A stretch of 41,479 bases of DNA. It comes from a candidate division SR1 bacterium. Its GTDB lineage: Bacteria; Patescibacteriota; JACMRA01. Positions within the stretch are counted from its first letter, which is position 1; each line of letters starts with the position of its first letter. The position numbers and the translations under genes were made by a program. Under the pieces are notes generated by a model that did not search any database, was not told the DNA's origin, and saw only the letters and a program-made list of their open reading frames with translations. The stretch spans positions 1 to 41,479 of the forward strand of contig JACMQI010000013.1 of NCBI GenBank assembly GCA_014377045.1, in the 5' to 3' direction. Shown here one piece after another: positions 6,545-10,497 of this stretch.

Positions 6545-6636
<92 letters not shown>

Positions 6637-6706: not shown

Positions 6707-6735
6707 TTGACATTTGAAAAAAGATATGGTAGATA
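6707..6735 (+). promoter_or_regulatory. Promoter of the surface polysaccharide operon
   Basis: TTGACA (6707-6712), 17-bp spacer, TAGATA (6730-6735). There is no start codon at the leaderless distance, so the transcript carries about 50 nt before the first small open frame at 6793. Confidence 0.6.
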
Positions 6736-6792
6736 CAAACTATAAATTTATTATTTTGTAAATAATATTCTCCAATAAATCTAACTATTAAA

Positions 6793-6906
6793 ATGTACGA
6801 TATTATAATACTCATATTTGCAATCTCGTTTATTACTGTTATAGCGTTAAATATTTTTGCCGCAATACTAAATTTTGTCATCAATCTAATCTTCAAAAGC
6901 TATTAG
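6793..6906 (+). CDS. 37-aa hydrophobic peptide, possible first gene of the operon
   Basis: ATG to TAG, 37 residues, almost entirely one hydrophobic helix (IIILIFAISFITVIAL… through …ILNFVINLIF) with a charged tail FKSY. It ends 13 nt before the sortase-like gene, the same spacing as between the other genes of this unit (11-13 nt), and lies downstream of a good promoter. It could be a real small membrane protein, a leader peptide, or a chance frame. No family is recognised. Confidence 0.45.
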   Translation: MYDIIILIFAISFITVIALNIFAAILNFVINLIFKSY

Positions 6907-6919
6907 TAAAACAATATCT

Positions 6920-7555
6920 ATGCTAACAAAAATTAAGAATTTAATCATAAAACTTACTATACTTGTTTTTTCGCTCGGATTAACCTTTTTTATCCTCGCT
7001 AGTACTTATGAAGTTACAGCAAATACAGATCTTCCATATGTTCAATCCATCACACCAATATCAGCTCAGGATGCAGTAAATAAAATTGTAAAATATAACC
7101 AGGAAGCTGGGTTAAAGGATTTTGGAAACAAAAGATATGTATCTCTTGGTGCTCTAGATTATTTGTATTTTCCTGCTCAGCATGTTCGCATTTTTACTGG
7201 TAAAGATAGAAAAATACCCGAAACAAATGAAGGTAAATGGTATATGAAACCTAACAATGCTCATTATATCATCTTAAACAAAGATAAAAATGGAGTCGAA
7301 GGTGATTATTTATTTTATACAAACCAAAGCTGGAGAACTATACCAAATGCAGACCTTATAAACATTGGAGATAAAGTACAACTATCCAATATTCGTGGAG
7401 ATCTATACCAGTTTATAGTATCTGATCGCCAATTACTTACAAACTCAGATTCTTATATTTCCACCCAAACAAACGACAGACAGCTCATTTTAATAGTTGA
7501 TTATCCTGAGCAAAATGCGTATTTTGCTTTTGCTATCAGACCCGAAAACACATAA
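6920..7555 (+). CDS. Sortase-fold protein lacking the catalytic residues (pseudo-sortase)
   Basis: 211 aa. A membrane anchor or signal at about 7-28 precedes an extracytoplasmic β-rich domain. The order of segments resembles a sortase: a YVSLGALDYLYFPA strand, a GDYLFYTNQSW segment where sortases have the GH(R/N)xW catalytic His, NIGDKVQL (sortase LkkGD.I.l), YQFIVSDRQLL, and RQLILIVDYP where the TLxTC catalytic Cys should be. Neither the His nor the Cys is present, so cysteine transpeptidation is not expected. It is the second frame of a tight operon with a GT2 synthase and an exported barrel-like protein. Assignment to the sortase fold is by pattern only. A structural or polysaccharide-binding role is possible. 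Confidence 0.55.
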   Translation: MLTKIKNLIIKLTILVFSLGLTFFILASTYEVTANTDLPYVQSITPISAQDAVNKIVKYNQEAGLKDFGNKRYVSLGALDYLYFPAQHVRIFTGKDRKIPETNEGKWYMKPNNAHYIILNKDKNGVEGDYLFYTNQSWRTIPNADLINIGDKVQLSNIRGDLYQFIVSDRQLLTNSDSYISTQTNDRQLILIVDYPEQNAYFAFAIRPENT

Positions 7556-7566
7556 ATTTTAGTATT

Positions 7567-8847
7567 ATGTTCGATTTATTTATATTTTTTAAAAATTTGA
7601 TTTATATATTTGTAATATTAATGTGGGTAAAGTATTATTTATTTTTACTTATATCACCTTTTTACCCTATTCGTGAAAAGCTAAGAAAAGTGAAAGCTTT
7701 TAAAAAATTGGCGAAGGAAGGTAAGTTAGTCAATTTTAATCCTAAAGTTTCTGTAATTATTCCTGCTTGGAATGAAGAGGTAGGTATTTTAAAAACTATC
7801 AAATCTGTTCTTTCAAATGATTATGATAATGTTGAAATTATGGTAGTAAACGATGGTAGTACTGATAATTCAGATAAAATAATTAAAAACTTTATAAAAT
7901 ATCTTAAGACTAATAACATTCCTGGTCACGAAGATATAACATATATTTATAAGGAAAATGGAGGTAAAGGACACGCTCTAAACGCAGGAATAGAGAGATC
8001 TTCAGGTGATATCATATTGACTATGGACGCAGATTCTGCTATCGAAAGTGACGGTATTAGAAATTTAGTTAATTATTACGCAGATCCAGAAATTATGGCA
8101 GTAGTTGGAAATGTAAAAGTAGCAAATAATAATACTATCGTGGGATTATTACAACAATTAGAATACTACTTTGGATTTTATTTTAAGCGTGCTTACTCAC
8201 TACTTGGATCAGAGTATATTTTTGGTGGTGCATGCGCATCTTTTAGAAGAGAGGTGTTTGAAAAATTAGGTTTGTTTGATGTATCAAATAAAACAGAGGA
8301 TATAGAGATGAGTATGCGAACACGCTATGCGGGTATGAAATGCACGTATGCGGAAAATGTCATAACTTACACCGAAGGAGCTTCCAATATTTTTGGTCTC
8401 ATAAATCAACGTGTAAGATGGAAAAAAGGAAGATTTGATACATTCTGGCAATACAAATCAATTTTCTTTTCGACTCAAGATGACCACAATGCTACTCTAT
8501 CTTTCTTTATATTACCCCTCGCTATGCTTGCAGAAGCCCAACTTTTGATAGAACCACTTGCAATTTCTATGCTTATAACTTATAGCTTTATTTCTAGTGA
8601 CTATTTATCTCTAAGTTTAGGTATTTTCTTTATTTTTCAGACATATTTAGTAGCATGTATTTTTAATAATTCAAAGATTGAACTTACTAGACTTTTCTCT
8701 TTTATATATACTTGGCCATTATTTTACATACTTGTATGGATCGAATTTTTGGCTCTTTTAAAAAGTATTTCAATGTCTATAAAAGGTGAAGAAATAGAGT
8801 GGCAAAGATGGAAACGAACAGGTATTGGAAATGAAATAAATCTGTAA
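7567..8847 (+). CDS. Processive family 2 glycosyltransferase (PgaC/BcsA-like polysaccharide synthase)
   Basis: 426 aa membrane enzyme predicted to polymerise and export a polysaccharide. A first helix lies at about 12-32, followed by the cytoplasmic GT-A domain. Catalytic motifs are complete: VND-GSTD (D96), DAD (154-156), TED (E244-D245) and QRVRW (281-285), the signature of processive synthases such as poly-N-acetylglucosamine or hyaluronan synthase. Two to three C-terminal membrane helices follow (about 310-390). It sits 11 nt after the sortase-like gene and 12 nt before the exported barrel-like gene, with no ribosome-binding site. The product sugar cannot be read from sequence; no PgaA/PgaB-like or BcsZ-like gene is present by clear homology. 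Confidence 0.9.
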   Translation: MFDLFIFFKNLIYIFVILMWVKYYLFLLISPFYPIREKLRKVKAFKKLAKEGKLVNFNPKVSVIIPAWNEEVGILKTIKSVLSNDYDNVEIMVVNDGSTDNSDKIIKNFIKYLKTNNIPGHEDITYIYKENGGKGHALNAGIERSSGDIILTMDADSAIESDGIRNLVNYYADPEIMAVVGNVKVANNNTIVGLLQQLEYYFGFYFKRAYSLLGSEYIFGGACASFRREVFEKLGLFDVSNKTEDIEMSMRTRYAGMKCTYAENVITYTEGASNIFGLINQRVRWKKGRFDTFWQYKSIFFSTQDDHNATLSFFILPLAMLAEAQLLIEPLAISMLITYSFISSDYLSLSLGIFFIFQTYLVACIFNNSKIELTRLFSFIYTWPLFYILVWIEFLALLKSISMSIKGEEIEWQRWKRTGIGNEINL

Positions 8848-8859
8848 TAATAAATATTT

Positions 8860-10077
8860 ATGAAAAGAAAAGAAGTCGTCCTATTTACAATATTGTTTAT
8901 AATATCAGCATTATTTGGAGCATATCTTACATTCAATACTTTTTCAAATGAGAGTATTGGAAGTATCACAGAAAAAACTTTTGCAAAAAATTTAAACCCA
9001 AACATCGTTAAGCAAACACAAATATCAGACTCATCAAAAAATAATAACTTTAATACTGATGCTAAAAAATGCATGCAATTACAAAAAACTGATTTTACTG
9101 AAACAATAGATAAAAATTTGACTGTTTTAGAAAAATATCAAGATTTATGTGATTCCCTCGCGGTAAGTCAAATGATGTTTATTATTGATATGCCAACAAA
9201 CGAAGAAGGAGCTATTATCAAAGCAAAAAAAATAGCTCCTAAGCTTAAAGAATTTGCTAAGTACAGAGTACTGCCTCTTATTATTGCAGAGCCTACTGAC
9301 GGAGACAATAAAATTAGTTTTAAAGAATTTAGCTCTGGAAAATATAATGAAGTATTTGACTTGTATTTTAAAACTATAAAAGATGAAGGAGTAACAGATG
9401 ATCAAATTGGAATGTGGGTTCCTTTCCCTGAGTACAATGTGCCATACTGGAATTTTGATGGTACCCTCCCTAGCGATTTTGGTACAAATATAAATAATTA
9501 TATCACTCCTTTAAAAAAGTATTTTAAGGCAAAGACGGGAATCTTACTAAACTCACAGACCTATTATCCAGAAGACTCAAATTGGGAATATGGTAGTTAC
9601 GATAGTTTTATACCCTATTTGAAAGGTGTAAAAAAAGGATTAATTGATAGTTTTGGTGTGCAAGGTTTACCCTGGGTTTCACCAGCAAGTACAAAAAGAG
9701 TTGAGCAGTTTGATCCAAAAGAATATCTTGCTACTGACCTTATTATAGAGGCAGCAAAGTTTCTAAAAGTTAGAGAGGTTTGGGTGAATACTGGCACTTT
9801 TTCTGAAAAATATACTAATGATATAGTAAAAAAAACCAATGTTTCTATTAACAGTCGAAAAACAATGCTAAATGGAGTATTGTCTGAGGCTGAGAAATTG
9901 AAAAATGATAAGTTTCAAGTTACTATAAACCTATTTGCTCAAGACAAGAGTTATCTTGGAGAAAGTACAAACTGGTCATACTTTGGTAGTCAAGCATCAA
10001 AAAAAGTTTTGCGTGAGTTTTTTGCTACCAGTAATGATAAAGAAATAAAACTATCATTATTTGATAAAGATTTATAA
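8860..10077 (+). CDS. Exported protein, possible glycoside-hydrolase-like barrel
   Basis: 405 aa with a signal-anchor at about 7-25 and a Ser/Asn-rich linker to about 65. The remaining 340 residues alternate strands and helices. Segments such as VLPLIIAEPTDG, GMWVPFPEYNVPYWNF, FGVQGLPWV and EVWVNTGTF place aromatic and acidic residues at strand ends, as in (β/α)8 glycoside hydrolases. I cannot name a family or the catalytic pair (E in AEPTDG and in WVPFPEY are candidates). It is the last gene of the GT2 operon, so a role in trimming or releasing the polysaccharide is a reasonable inference. Its 3' end overlaps the convergent HhH-BRCT gene by 6 bp. Confidence 0.65.
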   Translation: MKRKEVVLFTILFIISALFGAYLTFNTFSNESIGSITEKTFAKNLNPNIVKQTQISDSSKNNNFNTDAKKCMQLQKTDFTETIDKNLTVLEKYQDLCDSLAVSQMMFIIDMPTNEEGAIIKAKKIAPKLKEFAKYRVLPLIIAEPTDGDNKISFKEFSSGKYNEVFDLYFKTIKDEGVTDDQIGMWVPFPEYNVPYWNFDGTLPSDFGTNINNYITPLKKYFKAKTGILLNSQTYYPEDSNWEYGSYDSFIPYLKGVKKGLIDSFGVQGLPWVSPASTKRVEQFDPKEYLATDLIIEAAKFLKVREVWVNTGTFSEKYTNDIVKKTNVSINSRKTMLNGVLSEAEKLKNDKFQVTINLFAQDKSYLGESTNWSYFGSQASKKVLREFFATSNDKEIKLSLFDKDL

Positions 10078-10497
10078 AATTTCTTCTAAACTCTGGGCTA
10101 TTTTTATTCCCATTTTCCTGGCTTTTTCAAGTTTACTGCCTGCTTTCTCACCTGCTAAAAGAGTTGTTGTAGATGAAGTAACTGAATCAATTACTTTTGC
10201 ACCATTTTCTTCCAGTTTTGACTTGATTTCGCTTCTGGAAACAAGAAAAGTTCCTGTAATACATATCACTTGCCCAGAAAGCAAAAAAATTTTACTATTA
10301 TTTTTAATTGTCTTTTCAATATTTATCTGTAAACCATCTTGTTCCATTTCTATAAATTTTGAAACTAATAACCCGTATCGTTTTGATTTAATAAAACTAC
10401 CATAATTTTGAGCTAAAGTCTCGCCAATACCTTTTATGGAGAGTAAATCGTCTTTAGATAAATACTGTAACTGATTCAAAAATTCTGATATTTTCAT
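10072..10497 (-). CDS. Stand-alone HhH-BRCT protein resembling the LigA C-terminus
   Basis: 141 aa. Residues about 11-45 form a helix-hairpin-helix region (LLSIKGIGETLAQNYGSF). Residues about 70-141 form a BRCT domain with the LigA-type pattern: LSGQVICITGTF, RSEIKSKLEENGAKV, DSVTSSTTTLLAGEKAGSKLEKARKMGIKI. This is the order seen at the end of NAD-dependent DNA ligase, but the adenylation, OB and zinc parts are absent and the frame starts cleanly. A TTGGAC box (10530-10535, minus strand) lies 32 nt upstream of the ATG, the distance typical here, so it seems to be an expressed small protein and not a broken ligase. The target could be DNA nicks or forks. It is divergent from ftsI. Confidence 0.8.
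   Translation of the reverse strand: MKISEFLNQLQYLSKDDLLSIKGIGETLAQNYGSFIKSKRYGLLVSKFIEMEQDGLQINIEKTIKNNSKIFLLSGQVICITGTFLVSRSEIKSKLEENGAKVIDSVTSSTTTLLAGEKAGSKLEKARKMGIKIAQSLEEIL

Follow-up and report, generated by a model that had tools for sequence, protein, structure and literature searches.

How could a sortase-fold protein without its catalytic residues serve a polysaccharide synthase? The question is raised by a locus on a 41,479-nt contig of an uncultivated CPR bacterium from candidate division SR1 (the window, meaning the whole stretch of DNA analyzed). An initial annotation had described a three-gene surface polysaccharide operon, in which a processive glycosyltransferase (GT2) is flanked by a membrane-anchored sortase-fold protein lacking the catalytic His and Cys and by an exported barrel-like protein. 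Joint function was read from the tight spacing, and the dead sortase was proposed to guide or hold the chain in a distinct synthesis and export system.

Organization of the unit

The tightly spaced triplet is present. Three open reading frames on the plus strand encode a pseudo-sortase (positions 6920 to 7555; 211 aa, with an N-terminal transmembrane [TM] helix and an extracytoplasmic sortase-fold domain), the GT2 (7567 to 8847; 426 aa, PF00535, PgaC/IcaA-like), and an exported, TM-anchored, glycoside hydrolase-like (beta/alpha)8 barrel (8860 to 10077; 405 aa), with gaps of 11 nt and 12 nt, respectively. The unit has four genes rather than three: its first gene, overlooked in the initial annotation, lies at 6793 to 6906 on the same strand and encodes a 37-aa mini-protein with a single TM helix (MYDIIILIFAISFITVIALNIFAAILNFVINLIFKSY). 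The start assigned earlier, 6707, falls in sequence upstream of this gene. Just upstream of the unit are a gene for a T4SS_pilin family protein (PF18895; 5994 to 6479, plus strand) and a tRNA-Ser (6545 to 6636). Convergent with the barrel gene is a minus-strand gene (10072 to 10497) for a stand-alone HhH-BRCT protein of 141 aa that resembles the tail of bacterial DNA ligase, and a PBP-type gene comes next; an HhH-BRCT gene also flanks the unit in genome G001 (L008, 5045 to 5509). Promoter-like sites around the four-gene unit did not exceed their frequency in shuffled sequence.

A sortase fold with an empty active site

The 211-aa protein carries a single TM helix at its N terminus. Its AlphaFold2 model, built from an alignment with eight relatives, has a pLDDT of 85.5 and a pTM of 0.80, and in a Foldseek search against the PDB all 50 matches listed were sortases (best E = 1.2e-7). 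The structure check proposed with the initial annotation thus returned the sortase barrel that had been claimed, not another fold. Sequence comparisons point the same way: 17 of the 18 matches of the family profile to PDB sequences were sortases (best E = 5e-4), the 211-aa protein alone gave a partial match to the sortase model TIGR03784 (E = 9e-4), and weak Pfam Sortase matches were obtained for three of the nine family members (best, 4e-4). A nucleotide-pattern scan of genome contigs with the 211-aa protein alone as the probe gave no match.

When aligned with catalytically complete (live) CPR sortases, the IYGHN motif of the live enzymes corresponds to FYTNQ, and an Asp occupies the position of the catalytic Cys; therefore, the catalytic His has been replaced by Asn and the Cys by Asp. 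H115 is conserved but aligns with a noncatalytic His ("AHY") that live sortases also have. The loss of the catalytic residues is therefore as first described, and it extends to the C-terminal catalytic Arg. The His/Cys pair is missing from all nine pseudo-sortases, those of the window and its eight relatives, which share only 18 to 38% identity with the window protein, yet E31, P85, N112, H115, Y133, W138, R139, and T140 are invariant in all nine, and so is the signature N..H...Y....WRT, suggesting that these proteins are under constraint rather than decaying. On a phylogenetic tree, the pseudo-sortases form a single clade (support, 100/100) separate from all sampled live sortases; the branch is long, and the tree singles out no nearest live relative. 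The family resembles class D/E/GN sortases (PF04203, TIGR03784) in its fold, its single N-terminal TM anchor, and its weak but specific sequence similarity. Unlike them, it lacks the His, the Cys (TLxTC), and the Arg, forms its own clade, and has no LPxTG-type substrate gene within 4 kb at any of the nine loci.

The synthase, the barrel, and the polymer

The GT2 matches PF00535 (E = 2e-37) and carries the full set of catalytic motifs claimed for it, NDGS-D, DAD (DAD154), TED (TED243-245), and QRVRW (QRVRW281); the DxD, TED, and QxxRW motifs together with TM segments at both ends identify it as a processive synthase. Its best match among all NCBIfam models is TIGR03937 (PgaC/IcaA), with 162.5 bits against an equivalog cutoff of 422.3, and it also matches TIGR03111 (XrtG-associated glycosyltransferase) below the cutoff.

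The predicted model of the 405-aa protein (AlphaFold pLDDT, 83.7) bears out an exported barrel: an N-terminal TM helix and a low-confidence linker precede eight strands that alternate with helices to form a TIM barrel. Its nearest folds in Foldseek are GH53, GH113, GH26, and GH5, the best being a GH53 galactanase (E = 4.6e-6), and the GH113 and GH26 structures are mannanases. In clan GH-A, the catalytic Glu residues sit where strands 4 and 7 end; all 13 homologues lack them, and in the register of the predicted model, strand 4 ends in ILLN-S and strand 7 in NLF-A. Because the dyad positions carry no Glu, we rejected an ordinary GH-A enzyme as a reading of this protein. Three other Glu residues, E144, E191, and E368, are invariant across the 13 homologues. 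A Pfam search of the barrel family gave no convincing match, and its profile found a chance match alone among PDB sequences.

CE4 polysaccharide deacetylases are encoded near the barrel gene at four loci (L021, L029, L030, and L032), and TFDDG-type deacetylase reading frames adjoin the sortase and GT2 genes of the live modules L106 and L107 described below; both observations suggest that the polymer is N-acetylated. The PgaC-like character of the GT2 and the deacetylases found with the barrel at those four loci make a polymer rich in N-acetylhexosamine, of the PNAG or chitin type, probable. The window contig itself had no CE4 match; four CE4 deacetylases are found on other contigs of the genome. 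Deacetylase-GT2 fusion reading frames make up a second polysaccharide system in this genome (contig G000:C16; L069, 3116 to 6424) and in its relative (G001:C18; L072, 2715 to 5600 and 6134 to 8032).

The unit recurs across CPR genomes

The barrel family proved a productive probe for finding loci. Of 380 genomes sampled from the phylum, 6 carry this family, and it occurs at 14 loci in a large species collection. The order pseudo-sortase, GT2, barrel, all on one strand, was found in nine genomes of widely different CPR lineages (the window, L027, L028, L025, L024, L021, L022, L033, and L023), with Gracilibacteria, WS6, Moraniibacteriota, Shapirobacteria, Woesebacteria, and Saccharibacteria among the lineage labels of the other loci. 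Identity to the window is 53 to 60% for the GT2s at the eight other loci and about 36 to 41% for the other intact barrel genes. The neighborhoods otherwise differ, with common flanks only in the window and G001, which belong to the same family. In G001 (RU_4_5), the barrel gene (L027; L008, 5480 to 6653) is frameshifted and spans two frames, reflecting either an assembly error or a pseudogene.

A homologous small open reading frame lies directly upstream of the pseudo-sortase gene at all nine loci, so that the full order, mini-protein first, holds in nine of nine cases. Each encodes one TM helix bearing a conserved N-I/L, and its stop codon lies anywhere from 13 nt ahead of the pseudo-sortase gene to about 35 nt into it. 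In a leave-one-out HMM test, each of the nine mini-proteins ranked first among ~4450 small reading frames, with E values of 1e-11 to 3e-4 (1.6e-8 for the window).

The survey of gene order suggested by the initial annotation thus finds the triplet conserved, and the conserved spacing supports the joint function that had been read from a single locus. The triplet could in principle be a chance neighborhood of three unrelated surface genes. The rarity of the system (the 6 of 380 genomes above) and the barrel genes that lie away from any pseudo-sortase (L029, L030, and L032) would fit such an origin, but order and strand are kept in nine genomes with mostly different flanks, and adjacent genes overlap or lie a few nucleotides apart. 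Three genes in one order in nine distinct genomes are not a product of chance, and we regard this explanation as refuted and highly improbable.

Live sortases beside related synthases

The pseudo-sortase profile also finds catalytically complete sortases encoded immediately upstream of a processive GT2 (L078/L106 and L082/L107). A second search added L113 and L114, the latter with a divergent GT2, and the live sortase of L112 has a putative GT2-like neighbor. Thus, the window operon is not alone in having a sortase-family protein next to a processive GT2. Part of the claim of a distinct system stands, in that the dead form is conserved; the association as such extends to live sortase-GT2 modules in other CPR families.

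The GT2-linked live sortases keep the catalytic motifs IYGHN and QTC. Among nine live sortases examined (L106, L107, L108, L030, G054, L112, L113, L114, and L115), seven are preceded, 71 to 188 nt before the sortase start, by an LPxTG-type signal, and five of these seven LPxTG proteins are only 52 to 65 aa long. The contrast with the pseudo-sortase loci (7 of 9 against 0 of 9) does not represent nine independent events, since each group is mostly one clade. Several of the LPxTG mini-proteins, of ~50 to 65 aa, consist almost only of the sorting signal (L106, 6829 to 7026; L108, 7380 to 7562; L113, 1263 to 1448), and in L106 and L113 the GT2 gene lies directly downstream of the sortase gene. Homology between the TM mini-proteins of the pseudo-sortase loci and the LPxTG mini-proteins was not significant; the G054 mini-protein reached E = 0.75.

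Like the window unit, the live modules (L106, L107, and L113; compare G054) place a sortase-family gene beside a related processive GT2 and a small membrane protein just upstream, with a deacetylase nearby in L106 and L107. They differ in their intact IYGHN and QTC motifs, in the LPxTG type of their mini-proteins, and in the absence of the barrel everywhere except G054. On the GT2 tree, whose sampling is limited and which includes some long branches, the pseudo-linked and live-linked synthases group together against the CE4-fused GT2s (100/97).

The gene order in G054 (L009) runs barrel, 57-aa protein, GT2, sortase. The sortase is intact, with IYAHN and LLTCNG kept, and no pseudo-sortase is detectable in this genome. 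Thus, the same GT2/barrel pair can accompany a dead or a live sortase. The G054 GT2 falls inside the pseudo-linked clade, and the sortase groups with the other GT2-linked live sortases; retention of an ancestral live sortase is therefore unsupported, and replacement is more likely. The G054 GT2 gene (L009, 7710 to 8983) is frameshifted near 8363, through an assembly error or as a pseudogene.

What the dead sortase may do

We favor, at a probability of roughly 55%, a four-gene surface polysaccharide module in which the dead sortase is a noncovalent extracytoplasmic subunit of the synthase and which descended from a sortase/LPxTG-mini-protein/GT2 module. That gene order is conserved and spacing is tight suggests that the products work in a single complex. 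The GT2 would make the polymer and pass the chain across the membrane, and the mini-protein and pseudo-sortase may form a membrane-bound accessory assembly with it. The dead sortase domain would be positioned extracellularly, where the chain leaves the synthase, and would hold either this chain or the mini-protein noncovalently; the TM-anchored barrel may bind or trim the chain. The module probably derives from one that is still catalytically complete in other CPR bacteria; both proteins would have been retained, with simultaneous loss of the active site from the sortase and of the LPxTG motif. Given the long pseudo-sortase branch, on which the nearest live relative is not placed, descent specifically from GT2-linked live sortases remains a matter of inference. 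The recurrence of the dead-sortase/GT2 set in nine CPR genomes suggests that an enzyme of protein anchoring has become a structural component of a surface polysaccharide machine.

The role first proposed for the pseudo-sortase is that of a chain guide, whose groove would take up the growing polysaccharide itself, not the mini-protein or the synthase. An extracytoplasmic protein encoded beside a GT2 and a glycoside hydrolase-like barrel is well placed for this task, and the conserved aromatics Y133 and W138 of the predicted model could stack on sugars. Sortase grooves, however, bind peptides, and the small TM protein encoded directly before the pseudo-sortase at every locus offers a simpler ligand. 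We therefore consider a chain guide somewhat unlikely, and a dead sortase that binds the mini-protein or the synthase is at least as likely as one that guides or holds the chain. Alternatively, the 211-aa protein may not be dead at all, with N112, H115, Y133, and WRT forming a rebuilt active site for another reaction, for example, on a glycan or the mini-protein. Seven polar or aromatic residues are invariant in nine divergent proteins, and several adjoin the former His position, as a new active site would predict; but none is a nucleophile such as Cys or Ser, H115 has its noncatalytic counterpart in live sortases, and the residue pattern fits a binding pocket too, which makes a new catalytic activity quite doubtful.

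A broader interpretation takes in both forms: sortase-family proteins may be standing partners of one clade of CPR synthases, with the live form anchoring the polysaccharide covalently and the dead form being structural. The live sortase would join the LPxTG mini-protein to the nascent polymer or the wall; after catalysis and the sorting motif were lost together, the pair would persist as a purely structural synthase subunit. We advance this interpretation tentatively and think it unlikely, but it would amount to a novel way to anchor or export a surface polysaccharide.

Relation to known systems and significance

Among described systems, close parallels include the PNAG synthases PgaCD and IcaAD, which also combine a processive GT2 carrying DxD, TED, and QxxRW with small membrane subunits; by analogy, the mini-protein and pseudo-sortase may support their synthase as PgaD, IcaD, and BcsB do theirs. 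The window unit differs in the score of its GT2 (162 bits against a PgaC/IcaA cutoff of 422), in having no deacetylase PgaB/IcaB on the contig as a pga or ica operon would, and in a sortase-fold subunit and a TM mini-protein in place of PgaD/IcaD. Exosortases, in turn, are multi-TM enzymes unrelated to sortases. The XrtG/exosortase-associated glycosyltransferases (TIGR03111) and the PEP-CTERM/EpsH system (PMC1569441) resemble the window unit in that a sorting enzyme is tied genetically to polysaccharide synthesis, whereas the partner in the window is a catalytically empty protein of the sortase fold.

In PNAG systems, deacetylases and small membrane proteins accompany the GT2 (PMC7112194), and PgaB of Gram-negative bacteria includes a glycoside hydrolase domain (PMC5933820); the operon survey (PMC7112194) nowhere uses the word "sortase". 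PMC6744442 describes a sortase family in more than half of CPR genomes; the portion consulted mentions no link between sortases and polysaccharide synthases. The literature searched, outside which most subscription journals and preprints lie, holds no report of inactive sortases or sortase-GT2 links in CPR. Since PNAG systems lack a sortase, we conclude that the unit is, within that literature, a previously undescribed form of synthase-dependent polysaccharide system.

For many members of the CPR, the presumed way of life is attachment to other cells, and the construction of their surfaces is largely obscure. A conserved, widespread unit that pairs a synthase with a sortase-derived pseudoenzyme offers a specific candidate for one component of such a surface. 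In it, a transpeptidase would, unusually, have been co-opted as a structural subunit of glycan machinery, and the existence of both live and dead sortase forms allows the two to be compared directly.
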